Source of the DNA: Aquisalimonas lutea
GTDB taxonomy: Bacteria; Pseudomonadota; Gammaproteobacteria; Nitrococcales; Aquisalimonadaceae
Assembly (NCBI RefSeq): GCF_030409225.1
Contig: NZ_JAUFPK010000007.1
Location: forward strand, 175,169-239,168
DNA: 64,000 bases
Direction of reading: 5' to 3'
Shown here one piece after another: positions 4,558 through 27,072 of this stretch. Made by a program: the position numbers and the translations under genes. The notes under the pieces were generated by a model. The model saw only the letters and a list, made by a program, of their open reading frames with translations. It searched no databases and was not told the DNA's origin. Every line of letters begins with the position of its first letter. Position 1 is the stretch's first letter.

Positions 4558-6483
4558 ATGCCCGTTATCACCCTTCCCGACGGCAGCCGCCGCGAGTACC
4601 CGGAACCCGTCCCCGTCTCCCGCGTGGCCGCGGATATCGGCAGCGGGCTTGCGCGGTCGACCCTGGCGGGCCGCGTCAACGGCGAGCTGCGCGACGCCTG
4701 CGACCTGATCGCCGACGACGCCGAGCTGCAGATCATCACCCCGCGGGATGACGAAGGGCTGGAGATCATCCGCCACTCCTGCGCCCACATGCTCGGGCAG
4801 GCGGTGAAGCAGCTCTACCCCGAGGCGCAGATGGCCATCGGCCCGGTGGTGGAGGACGGCTTCTACTACGACATCCGCTACGACCCGGGCTTCACGCCGG
4901 ACGACCTGGAGCGCATCGAGCAGCGCATGGCCGAGCTCATCGACCAGGAGTACGACGTCATCAAGGAGGTGACGCCGCGGGAGGAGGTCCTGCGCATCTT
5001 CCGCGAGCGCAACGAGCCGTACAAGGTGCAGCTGGTGGAGGACATGCCCGACGTGGCGTCGATGGCGCTGTACTACCACCAGGAGTACGTGGACATGTGC
5101 CTCGGCCCGCACGTGCCCAATACCCGCTTCTGCAAGGCGTTCAAGCTCACCAAGCTGGCCGGCGCCTACTGGCGCGGCGACGCCGCCAACGAGATGCTCC
5201 AGCGCGTCTACGGCACCGCCTGGGGCGAGCGCAAGGCGCTCAAGGCCTACCTCAAGCGCCTGGAGGAGGCCCAGAAGCGCGATCACCGGCGCATCGCCCG
5301 GGCCCAGGACCTGTTCCACGTCCAGGAAGAGTCCCCGGGCATGGTCTTCTGGCACGACCGCGGCTGGCGCATCTACCGCGTGCTGGAGGACTACATCCGG
5401 CGCCTGCTGCAGGAGCACGACTACCAGGAGGTACGCACGCCGCAGCTCGTCGACCGCAGCCTGTGGGAGCGCTCGGGGCACTGGGAGAAGTTCGGTGACG
5501 ACATGTTCTACACCGAATCCGAGAACCGCACCTACGCGGTCAAGCCCATGAACTGCCCCTGCCACGTGCAGATCTTCAACCAGGGCCTGAAGAGCTACCG
5601 CGATCTGCCCCTGCGCATGGCGGAGTTCGGCTCCTGCCACCGCAACGAGCCCTCGGGCACGCTGCACGGGCTCATGCGGGTGCGCAACTTCGTCCAGGAC
5701 GACGCCCACATCTTCTGCACCGAGGACCAGGTGCAGTCCGAGGTGGCCGCGTTCATCGACCTGGTGTTCCGCGCCTACCGGGAGCTGGGCTTCGACGAGA
5801 TCCTCATCGCCCTGTCCACGCGCCCGGAAAAGCGCGTGGGCTCCGACGCCGTCTGGGACAAGGCCGAGGCGGCCCTGGACACCGCGCTGCAGAACGCGGG
5901 CCTGGACTTTACCCTGCAGCCGGGCGAGGGGGCGTTCTACGGGCCCAAGGTGGAATTCTCGCTGAAGGACTGCCTCGGGCGCGTGTGGCAGTGCGGCACC
6001 ATCCAGGTGGACTTCGCGCTGCCCGGCCGCCTGGGGGCGTCGTACGTCGCCGAGGACGGCAGCCGCCGCGAGCCGGTGATGCTGCACCGGGCCATTCTCG
6101 GCTCGTTCGAGCGTTTCATCGGCATTCTCATCGAGGAGCACGCCGGCGCCCTGCCGCTGTGGCTGGCGCCGGAGCAGGCGGTGGTTCTCAATATCACCGA
6201 CCGCCAGGCGGAGGCGGCCCGCAGCCTCGAAAAAACCCTTCGCAGCCGGGGATTTCGCGCTTCAAGCGACTTGAGAAACGAGAAGATCGGCTTTAAAATC
6301 CGCGAGCACACTTTGCAGAAGGTCCCCTACATGCTCGTCATCGGGGACCGCGAAATGGAAACAGGATCCGTGGCCGTGCGGACGCGCTCCGGCGAAGATC
6401 TCGGCTCCATGCTCGTGGAGGCGCTGATCGAGAAGCTCGAGGCGGAGGCTGCACGGCCGAATAGTGGCACTGCGGAGGATTAA
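4558..6483 (+). CDS. thrS: Threonyl-tRNA synthetase
   Basis: 641 residues, against 642 in E. coli. It charges tRNA-Thr with threonine in the cytoplasm. An N-terminal TGS domain ([14 protein letters not shown]...) is followed by the editing domain ([16 protein letters not shown]), the class II catalytic core with motif 2 ([16 protein letters not shown]) and the zinc-binding region around [10 protein letters not shown], then the anticodon-binding domain. ATG 4558 has an AGGAGA ribosome site and gives the family N-terminus; longer upstream readings add unrelated sequence. It is first in the operon with infC, rpmI and rplT; the infC start lies only three bases beyond the thrS stop, implying translational coupling. 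Confidence 0.98.
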
Positions 6484-11272: not shown

Positions 11273-11572
11273 ATGGCATTGACCAAGGCAGACATGGCGG
11301 AGCGATTGTTCGAGGAAGTCGGCTTGAACAAGCGCGAGGCCAAGGAACTGGTCGAGTGTTTCTTCGAGGAGATCCGTCAGGCCCTGGAGAACGGCACTGC
11401 CGTGAAGTTGTCCGGTTTCGGCAACTTCGATCTTCGGGACAAAGGGGAACGGCCCGGCCGCAACCCGAAGACCGGGGAGGAAATCCCCATCTCTGCCCGC
11501 CGCGTGGTCACCTTCCGGCCCGGGCAGAAACTCAAGGCGCGGGTGGAAGCATATGCTGGAACCGGGGAATAA
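11273..11572 (+). CDS. ihfA: Integration host factor alpha subunit
   Basis: 99 residues with the HU/IHF fold; the DNA-bending arm is visible as [23 protein letters not shown] bends DNA at specific sites and supports recombination, transcription and replication initiation. The position directly after pheT identifies the alpha rather than the beta subunit. The next gene starts inside the last codons of ihfA. Confidence 0.97.
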
Positions 11573-11909
11573 CGACGAGCTGCCGCCGATTCCGGCGAAG
11601 CGCTACTTCACCATCGGTGAAGTCAGCGAGCTGTGCGGCGTCAAGCCGCACGTGCTGCGCTACTGGGAGCAGGAATTCCCCCAGGTGAAGCCGGTCAAGC
11701 GCCGGGGCAACCGGCGCTACTACCAGCGCCAGGACGTGATCCTGATCCGCCAGATCCGCTCCCTGCTGTACCAGGAAGGCTTCACCATCGGCGGCGCCCG
11801 CCAGCGGCTCTCCGGCGAGGACGCCCGCGAGGACCTCAACCAGAGCCAGCAGGTCATCCACCAGATCCGCCTGGAGCTGGAAGAGGTGGTCCAGGCCCTG
11901 AAGCGGTGA
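11553..11909 (+). CDS. MerR-family regulator downstream of ihfA
   Basis: 118 residues. The N-terminal winged helix-turn-helix is clear ([23 protein letters not shown], residues ~17-40, then [13 protein letters not shown]), followed by a short helical dimerisation region. No metal- or drug-binding domain follows. It overlaps ihfA by 20 bases, so the two are translated together. A small MerR-like protein in this position is common in gammaproteobacteria, but its targets are not established as far as I know. Confidence 0.9.
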
Positions 11910-11911
11910 GC

Positions 11912-11940
11912 TTGGCCTCACCGCCGGTTTTGTGTAATAT
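11912..11940 (+). promoter_or_regulatory. Promoter of tRNA-Pro
   Basis: TTGGCC, 17 bases, TAATAT; the -10 box ends 11 bases before the mature tRNA 5' end. Confidence 0.55.
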
Positions 11941-11950
11941 CCCCAGTCGT

Positions 11951-12028
<78 letters not shown>

Positions 12029-12536
12029 TACAAAACAGCTGCTTACGGTTTCTGCCGAAAGGCTCACAAACCGACGAGTCACGCAATAGTCACAGTCTGG
12101 CCTTCCCTGTCCACTACAGCGACAGGAGAAGGCCATGTCAGTTCTTAATCAGTCCCATCGCCGCTGCTAGGCGCTCAACCGCGTCGGCTCACAGTGCCGC
12201 AATGCCGGCACCGCCTACCATCCACTAAACGCACACCATGAAGCGCTACTGTGCCCGGAGCACCAGCGACAGGCCCGCGAAAGTCGGGTGCGTGTTGCAG
12301 CCTTCCAGGCACGGGAGGTGGATCATGGCTGATACACGACTCTTGTGTGCGGAAAACGTCTTTCGACGAGGCCATGGGATGCCTGGAGCCGACGCGGGAT
12401 CTCGCCATGCTTCTGCATACCCGCGAGAGAGACCAACCGGAAGCGGTCGAAATACGCCACACGCTGCTCGACGCCCTCCTGAAGCAAATCACCACTCCAC
12501 CACCAGAGGAGGCCGAAGTGGTGAGTCCCGTCGCTA
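12029..12536. other. Island left end without a convincing gene
   Basis: Open frames of 90-139 codons on both strands show no recognisable domain and overlap one another. One plus-strand stretch near 12355-12520 (FDEAMGCLEPTRDLAMLLHT and on) looks protein-like but has no clear start and may be a remnant. This is where an integrase would be expected; none is seen. Confidence 0.5.
12098..12135. repeat. Long imperfect inverted repeat near the left attachment site
   Basis: TGGCCTTCCCTGTC, 9-base spacer, GACAGGAGAAGGCCA: 14 paired bases with one unpaired A. It lies 70 bases inside the island. GTCAC repeats precede it at 12079 and 12089. It could be a recombinase/excisionase arm site or a transcription terminator without a T-run. 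Confidence 0.5.
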
Positions 12537-12737
12537 CTACTCCCTGTCCTCCCGAACTGGAACGTGCCGATTGGCGTCTAGGTACGCATCGAGATCTTTC
12601 CTTCGATAGCGAACCTGGTGCCCGACATAGGTCCAGGCGGGTCCTTTACGTTGAACACGAAACCGGATGAGCGTCCGGCAGGAGACCGATAGATACTCTG
12701 CGGCCTGCGACGTCGTCAGTACAGCAATCTCTTGCAT
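12537..12737 (-). CDS. Small helix-turn-helix protein, excisionase/AlpA-like
   Basis: 66 residues, almost entirely one MerR-type (HTH_17) helix-turn-helix: LTTSQAAEYLSVSCRTLIRF, then VGHQVRYRRKDLDAYLDANR. This is the pattern of phage and island excisionases or AlpA-type activators. GGGG precedes the ATG by 8 bases. Its position near the left attachment repeat fits an excisionase that bends att DNA, although its integrase partner is missing. A regulatory role is an alternative. Confidence 0.7.
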   Translation of the reverse strand: MQEIAVLTTSQAAEYLSVSCRTLIRFRVQRKGPAWTYVGHQVRYRRKDLDAYLDANRHVPVREDRE

Positions 12738-13306
12738 GGGTTTATCCCCGTTTCAGCGATTCTCGTCGGGGGTAGGGCGCTTACTGACAACAATTTGGTG
12801 GGGCAGGCCGGTAGGCCGTCTGTAGAGCGTGAATCGCGGCAAGTTATACGGGGCCTGGTGGTCTCCACTTGGCGCGGCGTCATTGAATGCGTTCGCGATC
12901 GCACTGCCTACGCCACAGTCACTGGCGTGCATGCTGGGTGGTAGTGAACCGGTGACTCGCTGCGGAAATGTGCGGAGGCGCTGTTCGGTAAAACATAGGC
13001 CCGAGCGAATGCCGGGGAAGTCGCGATCCCACAACCATATGAGGGAAACCGGAGTAGTACGTATTCCGGCCCCCTCGTAACCGGGGATTCCGGCGCCAAG
13101 GCCGAAAACGGTCACGAGGGCCCGGGTAAAGCGTTCAGTTTCGCCGGAATACGCAAGTGTTTTCTCTTTGTGATCGGTTCATGCGGGCGTAGGGCTTTCC
13201 CCGCCAAAGGTGGGGCGACGACTTCGATCGTTGCGCAACGGGACGGCAAGCACCAATACAGCCCTTTCGCTCAGAGCGCATTCATGCTGATATCAGGCCC
13301 AAGCAC
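12738..13306. other. Gene-poor stretch in the island
   Basis: A 120-codon minus-strand open frame (12753-13115) exists but shows no domain, no clear ribosome site and no similarity I recognise. No RNA gene or repeat was found. Probably non-coding or decayed sequence. Confidence 0.4.
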
Positions 13307-13866
13307 ATGCCGCCGAGCGCTCCCATGCCCCTGCGAGCCGTCCTGGATGGAGAGCAAACCGAATCGTTTGCGTACGTGCCCGAGCGCTGGGCGGCGCTGA
13401 AGGCCTCCTATAAAAGCCGCTCGCTGGTGACTGCATGCTGTGGCGAGCGGGCGATTCCGAAAGTTAGCAAACGCGGAACGCAGTTCTTCGCACATGCCCG
13501 GCGTGGCTAGTGCACGTCTGCCGGAGAGACTCAGGAGCATCTCTACCTGAAGTGGGTGGTGGCCCAGGCGGCACACGCCGCCGGCTGGTCGGTGACAACG
13601 GAGTACGCCGGCACAACACCCGGTGGCGAGGAATGGATCGCCGATGTCTTCTGCCAGCGCGGAGAAGCGTGTTTCGCGGTAGAGATCCAGTGGTCGTCGC
13701 AAACGCTGGAGACGTACAAGGAGCGCCAGGCCCGCTACGCGGCCTCGGGTGTGCGGACCCTGTGGCTGTCCGAGTGCACGGAAATCGGTCGCTGTTTGAC
13801 GCGCTTTTGCCCACGTCGAAGGATCTACCGCTATTCGGTGTACGCAAGTTTGTCAATCTCGAACGG
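13307..13866 (+). pseudogene. CoiA-like competence/nuclease-family gene, broken by a TAG and a frameshift
   Basis: Reading straight through the TAG at 13508-13510 restores a continuous CoiA-like protein: MPLRAVLDGEQ, the CCG and RGTQFFAH segment, then after the stop CTSAGETQEHLYLKW, GGEEWIADVF and AVEIQWSSQT, where the E-x-Q pair belongs to the nuclease-like core. Near 13770-13795 the frame changes, and the C-terminal piece (SLFDALLPTSKDLPLFGVRK) continues in another frame. The gene therefore has at least two lesions and a shortened 3' end running into the next gene. CoiA-like proteins are linked to DNA uptake and are often found in mobile islands; the nuclease role is family inference. Confidence 0.7.
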
Positions 13867-13868
13867 CA

Positions 13869-14525
13869 TCAGTCGACGAGAGGTAGAGGCTGGCGTGGGT
13901 TCTGGCCTAGCCGTCCCGCGTCGGGCAGGTCAGTGCCCACCGACTCCCTCCACATTTGGTACGAATGACCGACTTCCAGATCACTCAGCATCAATAGGAC
14001 CTGCTCGTCCAGAACCTCAGCGATTCGGTTCTCCTCCACGCCTCTGAGATCGTTGACGGCCTCCTGCAGACCCATTCGTATCCGCTCCATTGCCAGCGCC
14101 GTGCGCGGCACTTCGCTCAAGGTCGTGGCCAGAAGATCGTTCATCACCCGCGGCATACTATAGGTGAACCAGGAACCGTTCCTGGCCAGTACATATGCGT
14201 CCCGGTTGCTTGGGTGTTCGGGGTCCCCACGCATGCTCGCGCATTCCGGAGTGACACCACCCGAAGGCACGGCGCGCAGGGAATCCAGAAGCTGCGGAGC
14301 AGTGATGGCCTTGATGACTTCTGCCTTGACCGTCTCTTCGGGCTGCGTCAACAGCAGAACGGTCGGGTAGGTCTTCAGCCTTTGCTCCAGCCACTCCGCA
14401 ATGTCGTAGTCGGCCATGAAGCCCTCGGGCTCGCGCCCCAGCCTCACAGCCAGCAGGCTGTACTCGAGATCTTCCAGGCTGACCCGAACGGTCTGGTATT
14501 CTGTGTTCACACTGATCGTCTTCAT
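13869..14525 (-). CDS. Protein of unknown function, divergent from the XRE regulator
   Basis: 218 residues, soluble, acidic, starting MKTISVNTEYQTVRVSLEDL. I recognise no domain. It seems mostly helical, with no membrane segment or signal peptide. AGAGGA lies 10 bases upstream of the ATG. It is divergent from the XRE-type gene at 14645 across a 119-base gap with two palindromes, so the pair may form a regulated unit, such as a toxin-antitoxin or immunity module. That is speculation from layout only. Confidence 0.6.
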   Translation of the reverse strand: MKTISVNTEYQTVRVSLEDLEYSLLAVRLGREPEGFMADYDIAEWLEQRLKTYPTVLLLTQPEETVKAEVIKAITAPQLLDSLRAVPSGGVTPECASMRGDPEHPSNRDAYVLARNGSWFTYSMPRVMNDLLATTLSEVPRTALAMERIRMGLQEAVNDLRGVEENRIAEVLDEQVLLMLSDLEVGHSYQMWRESVGTDLPDAGRLGQNPRQPLPLVD

Positions 14526-14592
14526 AGTTACTGAGTCCTCTTTGTGGCTCCTGGCATTGGGGTGCCGTGTGGAGCGTCGGGGTTGATAGTTC

Positions 14593-14606
14593 GCATCTTA
14601 CGATGC
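14593..14606. promoter_or_regulatory. Inverted repeat in the divergent intergenic region
   Basis: GCATC-TTAC-GATGC, a perfect 5-bp inverted repeat between the divergent genes; candidate operator. Confidence 0.4.
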
Positions 14607-14619
14607 AGAATCTACTGTA

Positions 14620-14646
14620 AAAGATAAAAAATGTATCTTTAAAGAT
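14620..14646. promoter_or_regulatory. Candidate autoregulatory operator of the XRE gene
   Basis: AAAGAT, 9 bases, then the perfect 12-bp palindrome ATCTTTAAAGAT, which overlaps the start codon at 14645. Three copies of the half-site suggest dimer binding and tight self-repression, as in many XRE-type antitoxins. Confidence 0.6.
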
Positions 14647-14941
14647 GTCAAAAGAATCTTCATTGGCGGTTGTGGCCGCACGCATCAGGGGGGCTCGCGC
14701 CATACTCAGGCTGAGTCAGAAGGATCTGGCGAGCCTGTCGGGCGTGAGCCACCCGCAGATCAATCGGATTGAGCGGCAGGAGGCATCGGCCCGAATGGTG
14801 ACCATTGAGGCGATTGAGCAGGCACTCACGGATCTAGGCATTCGTTTCGGGGCAGAAGACGAGCAGGGACAGCACGCAATCTACTTCGCGCAGCAGGTCG
14901 TGGACCGCCTCACGGATAACAAGCGTCCGGAGAAGCAGTGA
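14645..14941 (+). CDS. XRE-family helix-turn-helix regulator
   Basis: 98 residues. A classic Cro/CI-type helix-turn-helix spans about residues 10-70 (RIRGARAILRLSQKDLASLS, GVSHPQINRIERQEA), followed by a short C-terminal tail. It lies between the unknown divergent gene and the type I R-M operon. It could control either, acting as a restriction controller or as an antitoxin-like repressor. The palindrome over its own start codon supports autorepression. Confidence 0.88.
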   Translation: MSKESSLAVVAARIRGARAILRLSQKDLASLSGVSHPQINRIERQEASARMVTIEAIEQALTDLGIRFGAEDEQGQHAIYFAQQVVDRLTDNKRPEKQ

Positions 14942-15128
14942 CGGCATCGAGGATTTGAGCGAGTGACGAGGCGGGAAGAATCAACCTGACTGACGAAGCG
15001 ACCGATTGCTCACTGCCTCGATCATCTGCATTCAGCTCCGACACCGTTAGCGCTCGGAGCGAGTGAGCTTCGCCGCCTGCGCGTTTCCCAAAAAGTTCAC
15101 CCAGAACCTTAGGATTCTGTCATCGACG

Positions 15129-16838
15129 ATGAACACGACCGAACAGCAATTTCTCAGCGAACTGGATGCCAAGCTTTGGAACGCCGCTGACCGCCTGCGG
15201 AACAACCTGGACGCTGCCAACTACAAGCACATTGTCCTCGGGCTGATCTTCCTCAAGTACGTATCCGATGCCTTCGAGGAGCATCAGCGAAAGCTGCTCA
15301 GCCGATTCAAGGACGAGAACCACGAGTACTACCTGCCTCCGGAGGACTTCGAGGACGACGAGGAGTATCAGGAGGCCCTTGCGGAAGAGCTGGAGGACTT
15401 GGACTACTACCGGGAACAGAATGTGTTCTGGGTACCTCGTGAGGCCCGATGGCAGACGCTACGCGAGAAGGCCGCGCTGCCCACTGGCACTGTTCTCTGG
15501 CAAGACGAACGTGGCCAGGATGTGAAGCTCCGGTCCGTCTCCTGGCTCGTTGACAACGCCCTGGACGAGATCGAGAAGGCGAACTCCAAGCTCAAGGGCA
15601 TTCTCCCGCGCATCAGCCAGTACCAGCTGGACAACGAGAAGCTCATCGGGCTGATCAACTCCTTCTCGGACACCAGCTTCAGCAACCCCGAGTACAAGGG
15701 CGAGAAGCTCCATCTGCAGAGCAAGGACATACTCGGCCACGTCTACGAATACTTCCTCGGTCAGTTCGCCCTGGCCGAAGGCAAGCAGGGTGGGCAGTAC
15801 TACACGCCCAAGAGCATCGTCACCTTGATCGTGGAGATGCTCGAACCCTACAAGGGCCGCGTCTACGACCCGGCCATGGGGTCCGGTGGTTTCTTCGTCT
15901 CGAGCGACAAATTCATCGAGAACCACGCGGAAGAACAGCACTATGACCCCACTGAGCAGAAGAAGCAGATCTCTGTCTACGGTCAGGAATCCAACCCCAC
16001 CACCTGGCGCCTGGCCGCGATGAACATGGCCATCCGGGGCATCGACTTCAACTTCGGCAAGAAGAACGCGGACACCTTCCTGGACGACCAGCACCCGGAC
16101 CTGCGTGCGGATTACGTCATGGCCAACCCGCCGTTCAACATGAAGGAATGGTGGCACGCCAAGCTGGAAGGGGATGTGCGCTGGCAATACGGGGAGCCGC
16201 CGAAGAACAACGCGAACTTTGCCTGGCTCCAGCACATGCTGCATCACTTGGCGCCCGGCGGCTCGATGGCACTGCTTCTGGCCAATGGTTCCATGAGTTC
16301 GGACCAGAGCGGTGAAGGTGACATCCGGGAACGGCTGGTGGAGGCAGACCTGGTGGAATGCATGGTCGCCCTGCCGGGACAGCTTTTTACGAATACCCAG
16401 ATCCCGGCCTGCATTTGGTTTCTTACCAAGGACAAAGCGAACGGTCTGGTACTCGATGAACGCAAGCGTGACCGGCGCAGTGAAACCCTGTTCATCGACG
16501 CCCGCAACCTTGGGTACATGAAGGATCGGGTGCTCCGGGATTTCTCCAACGAAGACATACGGACTATCACCGACGCATTCCATCAATGGCAGAAGGGTGA
16601 GTGCTATGAGGACAAGGCGGGCTTCTGCTACTCGGCCAGCTTGGATGATATTCGCAAGCATGGTCATGTGCTGACGCCCGGGCGTTATGTGGGTGCGCCA
16701 GAGCAAGAAGATGACGGCGAGCAGTTCGCAGAGAAAATGGAGCGCTTAAATAGCGAGTTGCGCGACCAATTCGAGGAAAGTGAGCGATTGAAGAGAGCTA
16801 TTCAGAGGAGTTTGTGGAGTCTCGGCTATGAGTGCTAA
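15129..16838 (+). CDS. hsdM: Type I restriction-modification system, adenine methyltransferase subunit
   Basis: 569 residues from ATG 15129. An N-terminal helical HsdM domain (FLSELDAKLWNAADRLRNNL) precedes the N6-adenine methylase core. The SAM-binding motif is DPAMGSGG (247-254) and the catalytic motif NPPF (333-336). With HsdS it methylates the host recognition site; with HsdR added it restricts unmodified DNA. An in-frame GTG at 15063 would add 22 residues without conserved sequence, so I prefer 15129, although its ribosome site is weak. The gene overlaps hsdS by 11 bases, as usual for a coupled operon. Confidence 0.96.
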   Translation: MNTTEQQFLSELDAKLWNAADRLRNNLDAANYKHIVLGLIFLKYVSDAFEEHQRKLLSRFKDENHEYYLPPEDFEDDEEYQEALAEELEDLDYYREQNVFWVPREARWQTLREKAALPTGTVLWQDERGQDVKLRSVSWLVDNALDEIEKANSKLKGILPRISQYQLDNEKLIGLINSFSDTSFSNPEYKGEKLHLQSKDILGHVYEYFLGQFALAEGKQGGQYYTPKSIVTLIVEMLEPYKGRVYDPAMGSGGFFVSSDKFIENHAEEQHYDPTEQKKQISVYGQESNPTTWRLAAMNMAIRGIDFNFGKKNADTFLDDQHPDLRADYVMANPPFNMKEWWHAKLEGDVRWQYGEPPKNNANFAWLQHMLHHLAPGGSMALLLANGSMSSDQSGEGDIRERLVEADLVECMVALPGQLFTNTQIPACIWFLTKDKANGLVLDERKRDRRSETLFIDARNLGYMKDRVLRDFSNEDIRTITDAFHQWQKGECYEDKAGFCYSASLDDIRKHGHVLTPGRYVGAPEQEDDGEQFAEKMERLNSELRDQFEESERLKRAIQRSLWSLGYEC

Positions 16839-18237
16839 GAATTGGACCACTATTGATGATATAGCTGAGGTTTTTGATGGTCCCCATGCTACACCAAAGA
16901 AGACAGATATTGGCCCATTTTTTCTCGGTATTGCATCCCTGAGCTCTGGTAGTTTGAACCTGAGTCAGTCCGCGCATGTTTCAGAGAAAGATTTTAAGAA
17001 ATGGACTAGGCGGGTTACCCCGCAAGAGGGAGACGTTGTTTTCTCTTATGAAACACGTATTGGTGAAGCCGCCATTATCCCAAAGGGTGTTCGTTGTTGT
17101 CTTGGTCGTAGAATGGGGCTTCTCCGTCCGAAGCGAGATAAAGTGATTCCTGAGTATCTCTTGTACGCTTATCTCGCCCCGGCCTTTCAAAGCGTAATAA
17201 AAGCCAGAACTGTACATGGGAGTACGGTCGATCGCATTTCGCTTAAAGAGCTTCCTGATTTTCCAATTCAAGTTCCTCCGATTGAGGAGCAGAAATATGT
17301 AGTTAATGTTCTTTCTATCTTAGATGAGAAGGCCGAGATTAATCTGCAAATGAATAGAAACCTGGAACAAATCGCTCAAGCCCTCTTCAAAAGCTGGTTC
17401 GTTGAGTTCGAGCCAGTCAAAGCCAAGATGGCCGTACTGGAAGCTGGCAGTACCACCGAGGACGCGGAAAGGGCCGCCATGCAGGCCATCAGCGGCAAGA
17501 GCGACGCTGAGCTCGACAGCCTGAGAACCCAGAACCCCGAGCAGCACGACAACCTTGCACGCATCGCCGCGCTGTTTCCGTCGGCTATGATGGAGAGTGA
17601 GCTTGGGGAGATTCCAGAGGGGTGGAGCGTAGGCCAGATTTCGGACGTTGCCACCCTAAGAACGCGATCCATCAAGCCCTCCGACGCTTCGGATGAAGTG
17701 TGGGAGCATTACAGCATTCCTGCGTACGACGAGGGCAAGTATCCTAGTTTTGATCGTGGCGATGAAATCAAGAGTAACAAGTACCAGGTTCCAAATTCGG
17801 CAGTTCTTGTCTCCAAGCTGAATCCTCGATTTCCCCGGATTTGGTGGCCTCTTGTTTTCAACTCCAAGTTGTCTGTTTGTTCTACGGAATTTATGCCCTT
17901 TGTTCCTATGAGTACGGAGTGGCGAGGGTTCGTCGCCGGTCTGGTACTGTCAGAACCTTTTCAGCGCAGCATGCTGGAGCGAGTGAGTGGTTCAACTGGC
18001 AGTAGGCAGCGAGCCCAGCCCAAAGAAGTCATAAAAATGCCAGTCGTTTTGCCGGAAAGCGATCTCATTGAAGAATTTAGTCGTCGCGTAACGCCCCTTT
18101 TTCAAAAGAGCGCTGAGAACGTCAAAGAGTCAAGGATTCTATCAGAACTAAGGGACACATTGCTTCCCAAATTGCTTTCAGGCGAGTTGACGCTCTCGGA
18201 GGTAGAAAAAGAAGTGCCGGAAGCTGCCGATGTTTAA
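16828..18237 (+). CDS. hsdS: Type I restriction-modification specificity subunit
   Basis: 469 residues with the two-target-recognition-domain layout. TRD1 (about 1-180) ends in a conserved helix (NLEQIAQALFKSWFVEFEPV). A spacer with DNLARIAALFPSAMM links to TRD2 (about 255-430, beginning SELGEIPEGW), which closes with a second helix (LRDTLLPKLLSGELTLSEVE). Each TRD reads one half of a bipartite target. Both TRD-coding stretches, especially 16840-17380, are visibly AT-rich, whereas the central helix/spacer segment is GC-rich, as expected if TRDs were exchanged by recombination. Confidence 0.95.
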   Translation: MSAKNWTTIDDIAEVFDGPHATPKKTDIGPFFLGIASLSSGSLNLSQSAHVSEKDFKKWTRRVTPQEGDVVFSYETRIGEAAIIPKGVRCCLGRRMGLLRPKRDKVIPEYLLYAYLAPAFQSVIKARTVHGSTVDRISLKELPDFPIQVPPIEEQKYVVNVLSILDEKAEINLQMNRNLEQIAQALFKSWFVEFEPVKAKMAVLEAGSTTEDAERAAMQAISGKSDAELDSLRTQNPEQHDNLARIAALFPSAMMESELGEIPEGWSVGQISDVATLRTRSIKPSDASDEVWEHYSIPAYDEGKYPSFDRGDEIKSNKYQVPNSAVLVSKLNPRFPRIWWPLVFNSKLSVCSTEFMPFVPMSTEWRGFVAGLVLSEPFQRSMLERVSGSTGSRQRAQPKEVIKMPVVLPESDLIEEFSRRVTPLFQKSAENVKESRILSELRDTLLPKLLSGELTLSEVEKEVPEAADV

Positions 18238-19378
18238 GATCGACACCACCTCCAACCGCATAACCTCCTTGGAGCAAAGGCGCTTCGCGGATCTTGGTTT
18301 CTCGGAGCGGTATCACTTGCAGGAGTGGTTGGAGAATACGCCCGAGGCGTTTGGCGAGGAGCTTCTGATCATCCAGAAGGAGTTCGATGGCTTCGATGAC
18401 ACCCGCGAGCGCCTGGACCTGTTGGCGCTGGACACGTCCGGGAATCTGGTGGTGATCGAGAACAAGCTGGATGATTCCGGCCGGGACGTGGTGTGGCAAG
18501 GGCTCAAGTATGCGAGCTACTGCGCCAACCTCAGTCGACATCAGATTGTGGAGATCCATCAGCGGTACCTTAACGCCCGTGGCGCCGAGGAGGAGAACGC
18601 CGCCGAAAAGATCGCGGAGTTTCTGGGTGTTGAGGACCTGGCGGAGGCAGAAATCAATGGCAGCCGGTCCCAGCGGTTGATCTTCGTCGCGGCCAACTAC
18701 CGCAAGGAAGTAACAAATACCGTTCTCTGGCTGATCCAGTTCGGCATCCAGTGCCAGTGCTTCAAAGCCACGCCCTATCAATCGGGGGATGAGCTCTTTC
18801 TGAACATCGAGCAGATCATCCCGCCGCCAGAGTCCGAAGACTTTATGATTGGCATGGCGCGGAAGGAAGAAGAGAAGCAAAGCGCTAAGCAGGAGCTACG
18901 GCAGAGCCATCAGCTTCGGCCCGCGTTCTGGGAGCAATGCCTGGAAGCCTTACGAAACAGCGATTGCCGACTTTATGACAATATCAGCCCCAGTAAGGAC
19001 CATTGGCTGGCCGCGGGTTCTGGTGTGAGCGGCGTCCTTTACAACCTGATCTTCGGTAAAGGCCAGGTCCGCGTCGAACTGAGCCTCCAGCGCAGCCGTG
19101 CGGACGAGAACCAGTTCATTTACGATCAACTGGAGGCGGAGAGGGAGGCGCTGGAAGAGGCGTTCGGCGATCTCCTGGTCTGGCGTTCGCTGCCGGAGCG
19201 TAAGGCCTGCCGCATCCAGTACGCTTGTTCGGTGGACGGCTTCAATCAAGATAACTGGCCCTGGATGATTGACTGGCTTGTGATGCACGCACAGCGTTTG
19301 GAGCAGACAATGAGTGACCCTCTGAAGAGGGCGGCGGATTCGCTTCGAAAACAGGGTGCCAGCAAGGCGGGACCATGA
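18230..19378 (+). CDS. PD-(D/E)xK nuclease-like protein with DUF4268 domain, within the R-M operon
   Basis: 382 residues. The N-terminal half has a NucS/PD-(D/E)xK-like core: [20 protein letters not shown], giving D63, E77 and K79 as candidate metal-binding and catalytic residues. The C-terminal ~150 residues resemble DUF4268 ([14 protein letters not shown] to the end). The start overlaps hsdS by 8 bases, and its TGA overlaps the hsdR ATG, so it is an integral operon member. Genes of this type are found beside type I R-M systems, but their role is unclear. It could be an accessory nuclease, a DNA-end sensor or a modulator of restriction. Confidence 0.85.
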
Positions 19379-22300
19379 ATGAAGAACAACTCGAAAATCA
19401 ATGCCTCGAATGGTTCCGCGAGCAAAGGTGGGACGTGGCACATGGCCCAGACATCGCGCCCGATGGTGACAGCCCCGAACGCGAGGATTACCGCCAGGTC
19501 GCCCTTAAGGGTCAGCTCCGCGAAGCGGCGCGGCGCATCAACCCGCATCTGCCCGACGAGTGCGTGGAGCAGGTGGTGGGGCAAACTCTGAAGCCGGAGA
19601 GTCTGGACCCCATCGTCAGTAACAGAGCGTTTCACCGGATGCTGCTGGACGGCGTACCGGTCGAATACAAGCGCAACGGCGAGACAGTCTACGACCGCGC
19701 CTTTCTGATCGATTTTGAGGACGTCAGTCGCAACCGCTTCCTTGTGGTGAATCAGTTCACCATCACGGGCACTAAGCAACCTCGCCGACCGGATGTGGTC
19801 TGCTTCATCAACGGCCTGCCCGTGGCCGTGCTGGAGCTGAAGAATCCTCTTGATGAGAACGCTGACATCTGGGCCGCCTTCAACCAGATAGAGACCTACA
19901 AGAACGAGATCAGCGACCTGTTCGTATTCAACGAAGCCCTGGTCATCAGTGACGGGCTTCATGCCCGTGTAGGCTCAGTGACAGCGCCCCAGGAGCGTTT
20001 CATGCCGTGGCGCGTGATCCGGCACGAGGACGATAAGCCGCTGGTCGAGTGGCAGCTAGAGATCATGGTGCGGGGCTTCTTCGACCGGGAACTGCTGCTG
20101 GACTACCTCCGCCACTTCATCCTGTTCGAGACGGACGGTGAGCAGATCACCAAGAAAATCGCCGGTTATCATCAGTTTCATGCGGTGCGCGAGGCAGTAA
20201 AGGCCACGGTTGTCGCCGCGGGTGAGCCTGAAGGGGTTGCTGAGCGTCGTGCCGCCTATGGTGACAAGGTGGAACCGGGCAGCAAGAAGGGTGGTGTGGT
20301 CTGGCACACCCAAGGCTCTGGAAAGAGCATTTCGATGTGCTGCTACGCCGGCAAATTGCTCCAACACCCTGCCATGAACAATCCCACACTCGTGGTGGTT
20401 ACGGATCGCAACGACCTGGACGGTCAGCTCTATACCACCTTCAGCAACGCCCAGGAGCTGCTCAAGCAGGCGCCGGTGCAGGCAGACGACCGGGACGAAC
20501 TACGCCGCCTGCTGGCCGAGCGCGAGTCCGGCGGGATCATTTTCACCACGGTGCAGAAGTTTGCGTTGCTGGAAGACGAAAATCAGCACCCGGTTCTGAA
20601 CGACCGCCACAACATCGTGGTGATCTCCGATGAGGCGCACCGCAGCCAGTACGGACTCAAGGCGGTGCTGACGAGGGATGGTCGGTACAAGTACGGCTAT
20701 GCCAAACACATGCGTGATGCCATCCCCAACGCTGCCTTCATCGGTTTCACTGGCACGCCGATCTCCCAGGAAGACAAGGATACGCGTGCGGTCTTCGGTG
20801 AGTACGTTTCCATCTATGACATCCAGGACGCCGTGGACGATGGCGCTACGGTGCCGATTTACTATGAGTCCCGTCTCGCCAAGCTGGACCTGAACCACGA
20901 CGAGATCGACGCGCTTTCCATACAGGTGGATGAGGTCGTCGAGGATGAGGAGGACGTGGGCCTGCGCGAGCGAACCAAGGGAGAATGGAGCCGGTTGGAG
21001 AAGCTTGTGGGTGCCGAGCCGCGACTGCAGCAGGTGGCCGCAGACTTGGTGACTCACTTCGAGCAACGCAACGCTACGCTGGACGGTAAGGCCATGGTCG
21101 TGGCCATGAGCCGGGACATCTGCGCCCACCTGTACAACGAGATCGTGGCCCTGCGTCCGGCTTGGCACCACGTGGATCCGGAGCAGGGAGCCATCAAGGT
21201 AGTAATGACTGGCTCCGCCTCGGACAAATCGCTGCTGCAACCGCATATCTACAATATGGCGACCAAGAAGCGTCTGGAACAGCGCTTCAAGAACCCGGAC
21301 GACCCGCTGAGGCTGGTCATCGTGCGGGACATGTGGCTGACCGGCTTCGACGCTCCCTGCGTGCATACCATGTACGTCGACAAACCCATGAAGGGCCACA
21401 ACCTCATGCAGGCCATTGCCCGCGTGAACCGTGTATTCAGGGACAAGCCCGGTGGGCTGGTGGTGGACTACATCGGGATTGCCAATGAGCTGAAGCATGC
21501 GATGAAGATCTACACCGAGGCGCAGGGCCGAGGCCAGCCAACGGTAGACGCGCACGAGGCCTATGCAACGCTGCTGGAGAAGCTCGATGCGGTGCGCGCC
21601 ATGTTCGCCAAGGGACCGAAGAGCGAGGGCTTCGACTACTCTGGCTTCGCGGACAACCCCGACGCGCTGTTGCTACCTGCCGCCAACTACATCCTCGGCC
21701 TGGAAGACGGCAAGAAACGGTTCCTGGATGGCGTGCTGGCCATCAACAAGGCTTTTTCCCTGTGTAACACACTGGACCAGGCACAGGAACTGCGCACCGA
21801 GATTGCTTTCCTGAGCGCCGTCAAAGCGGCCATCTCCAAGGTCTCAAGCGTTGACCGGAAGCGCTCAGAGGAAGAGAAGAACACCACACTGAAGCAGATC
21901 CTAGACAACGCCGTTGTGGCTGAAGGCGTCTCCGACGTGTTCGCCCTGTGCGGTCTGGAGAAGCCCAATATCGGCCTGCTGGACGATGACTTTCTGGAAG
22001 ACGTCCGCCAGATGCCCCAGAAAAACGTGGCCGTGGAATTGCTGGAAAAGCTTCTCAAGGACGACATCAAGTCCAAGACCGCCAACAACGTGGTCCAAGA
22101 GAAGAAATACGGTGAACGTCTGCAAGAGACGCTACGCAAGTATAACAACCGCGCAATCGAGACTGCCCAGGTCATCGAAGAGCTGATCCAGATGGCGAAG
22201 GAGTTCCAGGAACAGATGTCCCGCGAGGAGGACTTGGGCCTGAACCCGGACGAAGTCGCCTTCTTTGATGCCCTGGCCAATAACGAAAGCGCCGTTCGAG

Positions 22301-22530
22301 AGCTGGGAGATGAGACGCTGAAGAAGCTCGCCCAGGAGATCACCCACAAGCTCCGCAACTCGACGACGGTCGACTGGCAGGTGCGCGAGAGCGTACGGGC
22401 GCGTTTGCGGATACTGGTGCGTCGCACCCTGCGGAAGTACAAGTATCCGCCGGATCGGGCGAGCGACGCTGTGGAGTTGGTTCTGGAGCAGGCAGAGGCG
22501 CTGTCGGAGCAGTGGAGTGCAGCGTCGTAA
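19375..22530 (+). CDS. hsdR: Type I restriction enzyme, motor/endonuclease subunit
   Basis: 1051 residues. The N-terminal nuclease domain has [20 protein letters not shown] (D140, E154, K156). The SF2 translocase core has Walker A GSGKS (314-318), DEAH (419-422) and the later motif GFTGTPIS. The C-terminal helical region (~850-1050) docks onto the HsdM2-S core. All catalytic motifs are intact, so the R-M system appears functional. The start overlaps the preceding gene (ATGA). Confidence 0.97.
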
Positions 22531-22837: not shown

Positions 22838-24118
22838 ATGAACTATAGTATACATGCGGAAATTGAAACGTTCGCAAAGCATCTCGACGCACTGTATACC
22901 TCATTGCCACTTGTTATGGCGATGACAAGTATTGCAAGAAAGGATGCGTCAGATAACTTCACAAAGTTTCTAGAAGAACACGGTGAAGAAGTCGAAGAAG
23001 ACGGTGAGGGTGTGAGGACCTTTTCTATTCCTCCCGAGAAGAATAGAATGGCAGCGAGGAAAAAGAAGAAAATAGATACTACTCAGGCAGCAGCAAGTTT
23101 GCTACCAAGATCGTTTATCGTCTCTTTTGTTAGTGAGTACGATGCTTATATTGGTAGGTTGCTACGTGTATTTTTAAATAGGAAACCAGATTTACTCAAT
23201 GGATCCGATCGTAACATTACATATTCTCAGCTAGTTGAGTTTTCTTCTATAGAGGAAGCGAGAGAGAGTATCCTAGAAAAAGAAATAGAGACCCTTTTGC
23301 GTAAGAGCCATGAAGAACAATTTGGCTGGCTTGAGAACAGGTTCTCAGTGTCATTAAGGAAGGGGCTCGACACATGGGGGGCGTTCGTTGAGCTTACTGA
23401 GAGGCGAAATCTATTTGTCCACAATGAAGGTATCGTATCAGAACAATATATAGCGAAGTGTAGAAATAATGGTGCTTTACCAACTCCCATCCCGGATATT
23501 GGCAGCAATCTAGGCGCAAGCAGGCGTTACGTAAAAAACTCCTATGAAGTTCTGTACGAGATAGGAGTTAAGTTGGCGCACGTTCTCTGGAGAAAATTGT
23601 TTCCGGATGACTTAGAGAATGCAGATAATAGTCTGATCGAACTAACGTACGAACTCCTTGTCGCCGAACGGTGGAAGCTCGCGGAGAATTTATTGGGCTT
23701 CTCGCTTAATACGATAAAGAATCATTCTAACGATGTAAAGAAGAGGATTTTTGTTATTAATTATGCGATAGCGACAAAGCAAGGAGGCGATTCAGATAAA
23801 GCATTGAAATGCCTAGATCAGCATGATTGGACATCTTGCAGTAACGATTTCAAGCTCGCTGTTGCAGTGCTGAAAGAGGATTATGATTTAGCTAAAAATT
23901 ATATGATCGCTATTGGGATTAACGGGGGAATCGCTGAGCAAGACTACAGGGAGTGGCCCCTTTTTAGAGATTTCCGCGGGACCAAACAATTCCGGGGAGG
24001 ATTCGTGGAGGTATTTGGAATAGAGTATAGATCCATTGAGGAAATTGATTCAGAAAGAGGTGGAGAGGACGAAGAAGCGGGGGATGCGCCTCATGTTGAT
24101 CCGGAAGGCTCTGAGTGA
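22838..24118 (+). CDS. HEPN-motif protein, candidate RNase effector of the defence island
   Basis: 426 residues, unusually AT-rich for this genome. A region of charged residues (40-82) precedes a helical domain with the HEPN ribonuclease signature R-x4-H, seen as RRNLFVHNEG (R190, N191, H195). The surrounding pattern (IVSFVSEYDAYIGRLLRVFL, then FVELTERRNLFVH) is typical of HEPN-fold families. The C-terminal ~200 residues are helical with TPR-like spacing (ALKCLDQHDW, FKLAVAVLKEDYDLAKNY), and the tail is very acidic. HEPN RNases often act in abortive infection and toxin-antitoxin systems. RNase activity is inference. No partner gene is obvious apart from the R-M operon upstream. Confidence 0.7.
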   Translation: MNYSIHAEIETFAKHLDALYTSLPLVMAMTSIARKDASDNFTKFLEEHGEEVEEDGEGVRTFSIPPEKNRMAARKKKKIDTTQAAASLLPRSFIVSFVSEYDAYIGRLLRVFLNRKPDLLNGSDRNITYSQLVEFSSIEEARESILEKEIETLLRKSHEEQFGWLENRFSVSLRKGLDTWGAFVELTERRNLFVHNEGIVSEQYIAKCRNNGALPTPIPDIGSNLGASRRYVKNSYEVLYEIGVKLAHVLWRKLFPDDLENADNSLIELTYELLVAERWKLAENLLGFSLNTIKNHSNDVKKRIFVINYAIATKQGGDSDKALKCLDQHDWTSCSNDFKLAVAVLKEDYDLAKNYMIAIGINGGIAEQDYREWPLFRDFRGTKQFRGGFVEVFGIEYRSIEEIDSERGGEDEEAGDAPHVDPEGSE

Positions 24119-24317: not shown

Positions 24318-25225
24318 TCACGCATCACCCCATTCCAAGATACGCTCGGCCATCGTTTCTTCTTCGTCCTCGACCTGAGCGTTGATTCGAGCGTCTTTGC
24401 GCAGCCGCCACACAACAAAGTCGATGTTGTTTTCGACCTCGTTGAGTGTACGTTCGTCGAAGCCGAGCATGTCCTTCCGAGGCCGCATAATAAAGAAGCC
24501 GGCGCTGTCTTTTTCATGCACGCGGAGTGCCGTTTCGATGTCCACGGCGCCCCGCAGCATGTGTAGTTCGCGTGTACTGCGGCTTCTGTAGACTGCGGAC
24601 AGCAGAGTTCCGAATCGTCCACGGCCGCGCAACGGCATGTCCAGCGTCCGCCGCCTTTGGATGTCTGCCGCCGTATCATCCGGGTCCATAAGCAACCAGT
24701 TCCAGTCCTCTGCGATCAGGGACGCGTCGACCCAGTCCGCTTTTTGGCGCATACGTGAGAACACCCGCTGCCGCGCCTGCTTGTTGGACAGGCTGCGAGG
24801 GCGCTGGTGTCAGCCGGCTCGGCTTCTGCCGGATGAACCGCAAGCGTCACGACGCCTTGAAATAGGCCGTTAACGGCAGCGTCGACGGTACTGTCCCTGG
24901 CTGGTTGGGAGGGTCCCAAGTATACGTGTGGGGAAGGTAGCTGGATCTCTTCTAAACTGTTGGCCTGCTCCGGCAAGGACTCCTCGACGGCCTGCATTAC
25001 CAAGGCTATGTCCTGCGTCGCTAGCCGGTTGCGGAACAGGCATTCCAGGCCGCTGAACTGACTGAGGACGTGATAGTGCACCCGATGGTGCTCGTCCAGC
25101 AGCACGACACCAGCGTTGAGCATCTCGCCTGTGGTCAATTCGGGCACAAGCCGGATTGGTGCCCACTGGCCCCTGACACCGATTTCACGCGGTTTGCTGC
25201 TGGCCACGGGGTCAAAGGCTTTCAT
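24318..25225 (-). pseudogene. DUF3037-like partner of the HipA-like kinase, apparently frameshifted
   Basis: The first ~145 residues (MKAFDPVASSKPREIGVRGQ, RLVPELTTGEMLNAGVVLLD) fit the DUF3037 pattern, and the ATG overlaps the kinase stop (ATGA). Near 24785-24815 the frame becomes nonsense (ACPTSRRGSGCSHV). A shift there restores RPRSLSNKQARQRVFSRMRQ and a protein-like C-terminal half, open to 24318 (FIMRPRKDMLGFDERTLNEV). Reading both frames together gives about 300 residues. A real gene split, programmed shift or sequencing error cannot be excluded. DUF3037 proteins are paired with HipA-like kinases in many genomes, but their function is unknown to me. Confidence 0.6.
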
Positions 25226-26022
25226 GTCATCACGCCTAGCTGCGGATGGTAGACGGCGGACGATGCACGTCGCTCCAAGAACGCGTAAGCGAACGCGACT
25301 TCGTCCTCACTCAGTATACTCGCTAGCCACTCGCGCAGGATAGAACGCACAGAGTCGAGCGCCATATGATGCTGATCGGCCGCCGCAACGGCCCGGTCCT
25401 GCATCTCACTGGGTTGCTGGAAAAGGTGAGCAAGCACCTCACGGAGGATGTTGCGGTAATCTGCATCGGGGTCGGGCCGGTCTTCTGGCCAGTCGCAGGC
25501 ACCGAATATCTGTCCATGGTCGATAAGCATGATCTTGCCTCTATGCACCTGAAGCAGGTTTCCCAGGTTGCGGTCTGTGTTTGCCAGCCAGTTGTCGAAC
25601 GCGATGATTGATGGGACTTGGTGGCTCGTGGTGAGCAACCTTTCGACGGCTCTTGTGTGTGCTGAACTGCGTTCGAACCAAACGGCGAACGAGGGCGCCT
25701 CCACGTACTCCGTGCACCAAGCCCACCTCCGCTGATCGTGTGCCAACCACGGGGGTTTATAATCGCCTAGATCGCATCCTTGGACCTCAAGTAGAGCCGC
25801 GTGTCCTGGTACCCACTGCTCTGCTGCAACGGCCAACACGTGTCCAATGATCTCATTGAGGATTAGTAGATCGCCCTTATAAAGCTATACGCACGCCTTG
25901 CGTTTGTTGCCGTCGCCAAAGTCGATAAATGCGAAATGAGTGTTCCCTATCAATCCCTCCGGCGCGGCTGCAAGTGGCTGCAGGTAGTGGGAGCTGTCGA
26001 GAACGGGGATGTGCGCGTCCAT
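25222..26022 (-). pseudogene. HipA-like kinase (HipA_2 type) interrupted by an in-frame TAG
   Basis: From ATG 26022 (AAGG site upstream) the frame encodes 266 residues with one internal TAG at codon 46 (25885-25887). Upstream is MDAHIPVLDSSHYLQPLAAA, then GNKRKACV, stop, LYKGDLLILNEIIG. Protein-like sequence on both sides in the same frame points to a single gene, perhaps with AAG (Lys) changed to TAG. The kinase signature is FDNWLANTDRNLGN followed by IMLIDHG, the catalytic and metal-binding segments of HipA-like kinases. HipA kinases phosphorylate translation factors and act as toxins. If translation restarts at TTG 25839 a shortened kinase could persist. Confidence 0.65.
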
Positions 26023-27010: not shown

Positions 27011-27055
27011 ATGGGGTGCAGGTGGTCGCAGGTTCAAATCCTGCCACCCCGACCA
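27011..27055 (+). repeat. attR-type direct repeat (duplicate of tRNA-Pro 3' half)
   Basis: Identical over 45 bases to 11984-12028, from the anticodon loop through CCA. The 5' half of a tRNA is absent, so this copy is not a functional gene. Confidence 0.93.
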
Positions 27056-27072
27056 ATCAAATTGCCTAATCG

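Follow-up and report, generated by a model that had tools for sequence, protein, structure and literature searches.

An accessory gene embedded in a type I restriction-modification (R-M) operon of Aquisalimonas lutea appears, from comparison of related loci, to be portable among type I, type III and BREX systems, and to be dispensable to the R-M operon that carries it. We call this open reading frame (ORF) X. It lies at 18230..19378 on the plus strand of the window, i.e., the whole 64-kb stretch of contig NZ_JAUFPK010000007.1 analyzed here, within which positions are counted. It begins with ATG and encodes 382 amino acids, predicted to comprise a NucS-like PD-(D/E)XK nuclease domain and a DUF4268 domain. 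We lean, by a little, toward the view that X is a self-contained accessory nuclease, an interchangeable cargo of the gap between hsdS and hsdR (S-R gap), which attacks phages that escape the host system and acts alone, not as a subunit of HsdMSR. Three observations are new here: (i) BREX, type III and type I systems are each followed by copies of X that are 98–99% identical, and the DNA of these copies is homologous from the start codon on; (ii) closely related E. coli R-M operons exist with and without X; (iii) 34 of 35 operons of the HsdR clade found in the window have a filled S-R gap, usually with cargo other than X, versus 18 of 35 when the HsdRs are more distant. The gene would then be less an additional component of a single restriction enzyme than a weapon moved among systems that methylate their own DNA.

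The near-identical copies of X are found after BREX genes in two loci (L071, L078; L numbers denote the loci compared), after type III genes in two (L073, L076) and after type I genes in two (L083, L087). The BREX matches were scanned in L071 and the type III matches in L073; L076, L078 and L094 were assigned through DNA homology. When L071 is compared with L073, L076, L083 and L087 in 30-nt bins, DNA identity is 0.10–0.37 upstream of the start codon and 0.83–1.00 downstream of it, i.e., the boundary of DNA homology among these copies is the start codon of X. L071 and L087 have an additional 3.6 kb in common after X, so these two loci agree in X and the DNA to its right but have different systems on its left. 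In a tree of X, eight alphaproteobacterial copies group together (SH-aLRT 97), and their contexts include BREX, type III and type I systems. The whole tree requires 18 context changes versus a mean of 23.6 when contexts are shuffled, and a number as low is reached in 0 of 200 shuffles; the contexts are therefore clustered yet often changed (labels were assigned by hand, and L067 counts as type I in the survey and as “other” on the tree). Among the 42 of 81 loci with full-length HsdM, HsdS and HsdR (39 were dropped), the Spearman correlation of patristic distances is 0.92 for HsdM and HsdR and 0.50 for X and HsdR, the latter value being partly lowered by the narrower sampling range of X. There are 281 pairs of X at least 60% identical; the accompanying HsdRs are less than 30% identical or only partly aligned in 97 of them, and at least 50% identical in 174. 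In the top examples, X proteins 75–84% identical sit beside HsdRs 19–29% identical. The junctions can be inspected at position 10001 of L071, L073, L076 and L087, where unrelated systems are joined to nearly the same X precisely at its start codon.

The first-pass annotation of this DNA had placed an extra gene within the type I operon, overlapping hsdS at its start and hsdR at its end, and this is what we find. On the plus strand, hsdM (15129..16838; start set where relatives align, in an ORF that opens at 15063) is followed by hsdS (16828..18237), whose stop lies 8 nt within X, and the start of hsdR (19375..22530) shares 4 nt (ATGA) with the X stop. The flanking genes have the Pfam families of HsdM (N6_Mtase, HsdM_N), HsdS (Methylase_S) and HsdR (HSDR_N, SWI2_SNF2, T1RH-like_C). 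Because of the overlaps, co-transcription and coupled translation of X are likely. The annotation had gone further, stating that X is made with the R-M complex and hinting that it belongs to it; the overlaps favor the first part, and the second is not supported, given operons with 97–98% identical HsdM and HsdR that have no X, and an X tree that follows HsdR less closely than the HsdM tree does. The overlaps on both sides, together with the order S-X-R in 41 of the 51 loci with S and R labels (10 have another order), might still be taken to mean that X is a dedicated fourth subunit of the type I enzyme, or a helper in its processivity or cleavage. We reject this very improbable reading on the grounds of natural absence and exchange. 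A fourth subunit should always be present, whereas X is found in 2 of 35 scored S-R gaps of operons with the HsdRs closest to that of the window and is missing from an intact E. coli operon; and similar X proteins go with the dissimilar HsdRs just described, and with BREX and type III neighbors.

One case of natural absence is found in E. coli. Strain PSS-08-1 (L234) has the order M-S-X-R and strain EC102 (L231) the order M-S-R with all three genes annotated as intact; their HsdRs are 97.7% and their HsdMs 97.0% identical, and the same gene (WP_006809979.1) comes next downstream. In another genus (g17), X occupies the gap in L137 and L138 while PDC-M72A and PDC-M72B occupy it in L140, with HsdMs 90–92% and HsdRs 87–89% identical to those of L140. 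A 400-bp query over the X-less junction matches 66 of 5,426 E. coli genomes; among the 60 matches listed, 7 are whole, 5 more run unbroken from S into R, 12 have DUF4268 beside R, and 36 lie within S only. The X-less form also occurs on a Citrobacter plasmid, and in strain B27 hsdM is frameshifted. These comparisons indicate that X is dispensable to the R-M operon, hsdMSR being intact without it. At 6034–6073 of L231, the X-less hsdS ends in the letters GAGGAAGCCTGATG, which close X in the X-bearing L234 and L235; the shared closing letters suggest exchange between the two forms at a short common sequence.

What does X encode? Its N-terminal half is predicted to be a NucS/EndoMS-like nuclease domain (18305..18781, residues 26–184; the EndoMS/NucS structural matches cover residues 21–184). 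The first-pass annotation had pointed to D63, E77 and K79 as a possible nuclease site separate from that of HsdR. The residues are as described, near-invariant and aligned to the NucS active site (stretch D63 ... E77-N-K79, 18416..18466, delimited by conservation and the NucS alignment), and HsdR has its own complete motif (D140/E154/K156/Q171/Y175). In 95 rows longer than 300 amino acids, D63 and E77 are conserved in 95, Q90, Y94 and E26 in 94 each, and K79 in 88, a conservation that exceeds chance. This count takes in the window X and the copy L001 from its own genome, and leaves out L018 (no X found) and L014, L015, L016 and L019 (shorter than 300 amino acids). Alignment A1 leaves out these five as well as L001 and L043; A2 leaves out L043 and all loci from genome searches, and A4 drops 9 of the 79 relatives in A2. 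X is also under purifying selection, with dN/dS (nonsynonymous to synonymous rates) of 0.013–0.036 in the 3 of 4 pairs of relatives for which it is computable, dS being near saturation in 2.

With a 93-sequence profile (the window included), residues 60–99 of X align with residues 157–196 of Pyrococcus abyssi NucS (2vld; E 0.037), so that D63/E77/K79/Q90/Y94 correspond to NucS D160/E174/K176/Q187/Y191. We accept this match only because motif and fold agree. These NucS residues, plus K44 and E127, are described in a review (PMC7343888) as a motif in common with RecB. The AlphaFold2 model of X has a mean predicted local distance difference test score (pLDDT) of 82.4 and a predicted template modeling score (pTM) of 0.51; the best structural match of its N-terminal half is EndoMS (5gke; Z 11.1, root-mean-square deviation [rmsd] 2.9, 112 residues aligned), followed by NucS 2vld (Z 10.7). 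The Shedu protein SduA matches more weakly (Z 6.4–6.5, rmsd 6.2–7.5), and other nucleases also match less well. X thus has the conserved D...ExK and QxxxY in a matching fold that are expected of the PD-(D/E)XK superfamily. The Pfam family PDDEXK_4 matches below threshold (E 0.072, 13.5 bits vs cut-off 22.3). A search of the PDB with the X sequence alone returned three weak matches (E 0.11–0.13), which we take as chance.

The likeness to a repair enzyme raises the possibility that X is a DNA-repair or end-processing enzyme limiting host damage from the double-strand breaks made by the R-M system. We regard this as the least probable of the explanations discussed here. The nuclease fold is indeed common to X and NucS/EndoMS, with the D/E/K/Q/Y residues, but the match is limited to the nuclease domain, X having DUF4268 at its other end, and X falls far below the NCBIfam NucS/EndoMS equivalog cut-offs (15.9 vs 216; 12.9 vs 252). 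X also occurs beside BREX, which is called restriction without cleavage in the part of PMC12707154 available.

The C-terminal region (18914..19318, residues 229–363) matches DUF4268 (PF14088) with E 8e-34 and 117.1 bits against a gathering cut-off of 27. Modeled alone, this domain has a pLDDT of 89.3 and a pTM of 0.84. Its fold is probably YbjN- or secretion-chaperone-like: Foldseek matches the model to YbjN with E 5.1e-4, the comparisons with YbjN, DR_1245 and type III secretion chaperones give borderline scores (Z 8.0–8.5, rmsd 3.7–6.0 over 113–127 residues), and the top matches are largely of one fold class. Since these scores are borderline, a role in dimerization or in binding a ligand, peptide or partner is a guess.

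X is not new as a family. The PADLOC profile of candidate family PDC-S11 (PDLC04913) matches residues 1–374 over profile positions 1–373 of 375 (E 3.4e-171), a near full-length match with no difference found, and X is a member by this measure. PDC families are phage defense candidates named through “guilt by embedding” by Payne and colleagues in 2024, according to the passages available of PMC12988326, PMC10855318 and PMC12255303. In the excerpt of PMC10855318, PDC-S11 is present in 10 Pseudomonas aeruginosa strains, 90% of which are phage-resistant, and that of PMC12813430 has it in co-occurrence lists of Streptococcus suis. In the literature searched, which includes the available parts of PMC10855318, PMC12813430 and PMC12988326, we found no functional test of the PDC-S11/DUF4268 family.

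We are interested in the company that relatives of X keep. From a scan of one genome each for 84,980 species we took the best 80 of 185 relatives, with alignment identities to X of 51–65% when L043 is set aside. The first-pass annotation had proposed a survey of DUF4268 co-occurrence with hsdR. Such an association exists for the majority, a same-strand HsdR homolog being found in the flanks of 55 of the 80 (some flanks are short); other relatives lie with BREX, type III or other systems, or have no recognized partner. Where the order is S-X-R, at most 200 bp separate X from R in 15 of the 41 loci, and more lies between in 26. Of 10 further genes between X and R, 8 have a PADLOC match at 1e-5, 3 of these weak and of the SIR2/pAgo type only (the one in L087 sits between R and X). 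Outside type I operons, X comes after BREX with PglZ and BrxL directly upstream (L071), with type III Mod/Res (L073), and with a type IIG/DrmMI-like protein (L097); GajA lies downstream of X in L086, and a ZorD/DpdE-like helicase approximately 3 kb downstream in L057; L082 has a dCTPase-family match. This annotation is partial, 9 of the 20 proteins scanned from such or odd loci having no PADLOC match at 1e-10. A Cas9-like match lies 2.4 kb from X in L024, and in L050 a single planctomycete protein (11297–15229) after X matches both HsdM and HsdR profiles.

In an even phylum sample of 397 genomes, DUF4268 occurs in 18 (15 of these above cut-off) and an HsdR like that of the window in 168. X matches 366 of 72,556 plasmid records, and the M-S-X-R arrangement is found on plasmids, e.g., in Raoultella and Shewanella. 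Viral contigs yield 10 X relatives among 133 pattern-matched stretches. A phage origin of X was considered and rejected, as X matches 1 of 50,697 phage records at E 1e-5 (partial, 32%) and 2 at E 1. Among the five genomes of the window's genus, X was found in one, the window's own.

Is the S-R gap a general slot for such cargo? We compared 40 operons with the HsdRs closest to that of the window and 40 with more distant HsdRs; 35 were scored in each set, 5 without HsdS (upstream, in the closest set) being dropped. In the closest set the gap is at least 630 bp in 34 operons and -4 bp in one (median of all 35, 1412), against a median M-S gap of -8 in 33 operons. Counting a gap of at least 300 bp as filled, the difference between the two sets has a Fisher P of 1.4e-5, a test that ignores relatedness; the M-S gap is an imperfect control, reaching this length in 9 of 33 and 4 of 33 operons. 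The filled gaps contain 63 ORFs of at least 80 amino acids in 49 sequence clusters. Short ones may not be genes, and the 57 of at least 130 amino acids were scanned against profiles. X itself fills 2 of the 35 gaps. The cargo has a PADLOC match at 1e-5 in 25 of the 34 filled operons, and the scanned protein has none in the other 9; in 30 of the 34, one or two cargo proteins were read singly (those of L152 and L163 were placed through the SoFic cluster, and L137 and L138 through the X profile). For control, 2 of 10 unrelated ORFs of the window have a PADLOC match, and we take these as housekeeping homologs. The cargoes include SIR2, TIR, Tmn, SoFic, AbiJ, AbiZ, DRT4, RhuM-type PDC-S05/S23, PDC-S06 with a match to the PrrC profile, PDC-S14, PDC-S15, HEC-01A, HEC-05 and others.

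A neutral explanation is that any gene in the gap would serve as a spacer that delays HsdR after HsdM and HsdS, so that methylation comes first and the content matters little. The filling of 34 of 35 gaps with mostly unrelated genes fits this idea. We nevertheless find it very unlikely in view of the purifying selection on X and its conserved active site, the many defense-like cargoes in the gaps (25 of 34 operons vs 2 of 10 control ORFs) and the E. coli operons that do without filler. Cargo between hsdS and hsdR has a precedent in DarTG2 of the RRDM island of E. coli E2348/69, which differs in being a toxin-antitoxin pair and a cargo other than X; its site is a potential recombination hotspot according to the authors (PMC12255303, available part). 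Near-universal filling of the gap in this HsdR clade was not found stated in the literature searched, insofar as its text was available. The nearly always filled gap of this clade is a place to look for new effectors.

Two observations in the slot set concern other proteins. The PDC-S15 profile matches residues 914–1042 of the window HsdR, and the PDC-S15 cargo (L136:7450–8757; relative L135:6215–7486) bears a stretch like the T1RH-like_C tail of HsdR that might serve as a docking decoy toward the R-M complex. Directly upstream of hsdM in the same locus (L136:2631–4208), a 525 amino acid protein matches the X profile in the nuclease part only (23.8 bits); it was not counted as X and is perhaps another accessory nuclease.

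The chief rival to our reading is that X is a guard like PrrC, silenced by the R-M, BREX or type III complex and freed by a phage anti-restriction protein, whereupon it cuts DNA and stops the cell. X lies within a type I R-M operon, as a guard-type gene should. The PrrC gene of EcoprrI likewise lies in a type IC operon, and this effector is sequestered by the enzyme complex (PMC3874165 and PMC12707154, available parts). Several cargoes of the same gap match profiles of toxin or abortive type (SIR2, TIR, SoFic, AbiJ, AbiZ, DRT4, and PDC-S06 with its PrrC match), and PDC-S15 has the HsdR-like C-terminal tail. On the other hand, no HsdR-like or PrrC-like segment was detected in X at E 0.1 (Pfam, PADLOC), PrrC is absent among the 12 PADLOC families matching X, and X sits with unrelated systems and also without a recognized partner. 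X also has other domains than PrrC, is a predicted DNase rather than a tRNase, and occurs with more than one R-M type. We therefore consider a guard role unlikely and favor X acting alone. A broader version, which we hold to be doubtful, is that in this HsdR clade (with a HindI-like C-terminus) the S-R gap is a near-obligatory socket for swappable effectors including X, some or all of which guard the R-M system and fire on its inhibition; the PDC-S15 tail would be a decoy, and X the DNA-cutting member of a general guard set available to BREX and type III systems as well.

On our preferred reading, in which X is a nuclease acting by itself, it would be translated along with HsdS and HsdR and would cut DNA with its N-terminal NucS/EndoMS-like domain, and DUF4268 would serve dimerization or the binding of a ligand or partner. 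Its target would be DNA from phages able to evade or disable the methylation-based system of the host operon, to whose defense it would add another layer. X would work on its own rather than as a subunit with HsdR, HsdM and HsdS, in a division of labor like that of BrxU, and by its place in the operon it would be regulated and transferred together with its host system. BrxU, a type IV enzyme found within a BREX island, works independently against modified phage DNA (PMC12707154, available part), and the GmrSD family includes fusions with DUF4268 (PMC4619093). BrxU is the closest working precedent for X, a nuclease embedded in an island of methylation-based defense, and the link between GmrSD and DUF4268 points the same way; X differs in having no Pfam match to DUF262 or DUF1524. 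Shedu SduA offers a second comparison, being a single-protein nuclease defense (PMC12948488, available part) with the weaker fold match noted above; it differs in that X has no match to a family named Shedu or SduA in Pfam or PADLOC at E 0.1.

Several points weigh against this reading. The activity, target and trigger of X are putative. HsdR lies near 55 of the 80 relatives, context is clustered on the X tree beyond chance, and a correlation of X with HsdR is present at 0.50; because of the first two, a functional tie of X to type I enzymes is conceivable. The HsdS of EC102 is only 42% identical to that of PSS-08-1 over 358 amino acids, so the pair is not isogenic. K79 is replaced in 7 of the 95 rows (six Q, one N; six divergent DUF4268 proteins and L093), and some relatives may therefore be inactive. 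On a Klebsiella pneumoniae plasmid, X lies between insertion sequences, and the incomplete gene table lists no R-M gene within 6 kb of it; this stand-alone copy may be a remnant. The PSS-08-1 and EC102 operons, which are natural forms with and without X, and the set of the same gene in three systems make it directly testable whether embedded defense genes act alone, add up with their hosts or guard them.

The R-M operon of the window sits between direct repeats derived from a tRNA-Pro gene, and the 15 kb block so bounded is thus probably a genomic island. The left 51-nt repeat (11984..12034, plus strand), a probable island border, lies at the 3' half of the tRNA-Pro(GGG) gene (11952–12028), and the right copy (27011..27061, plus strand) is 96% identical and 15,027 bp away. 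A long stretch of the left flank at the tRNA-Pro gene occurs in 3 of 4 genus relatives (77–79%); no clean empty site was seen among the 4, and the right flank of the window beyond the repeat was not found beside the left one. Directly upstream of hsdM, a small helix-turn-helix regulator (14645–14941) is a candidate controller of the operon. The ORF directly after hsdR (22838–24118) has a weak RiboL-PSP-HEPN match (E 2e-4, below cut-off) and is perhaps another accessory effector. Further inside the repeat block, on the minus strand (24318–25839), a DUF3037 protein adjoins a HipA_2-like kinase (below cut-off).

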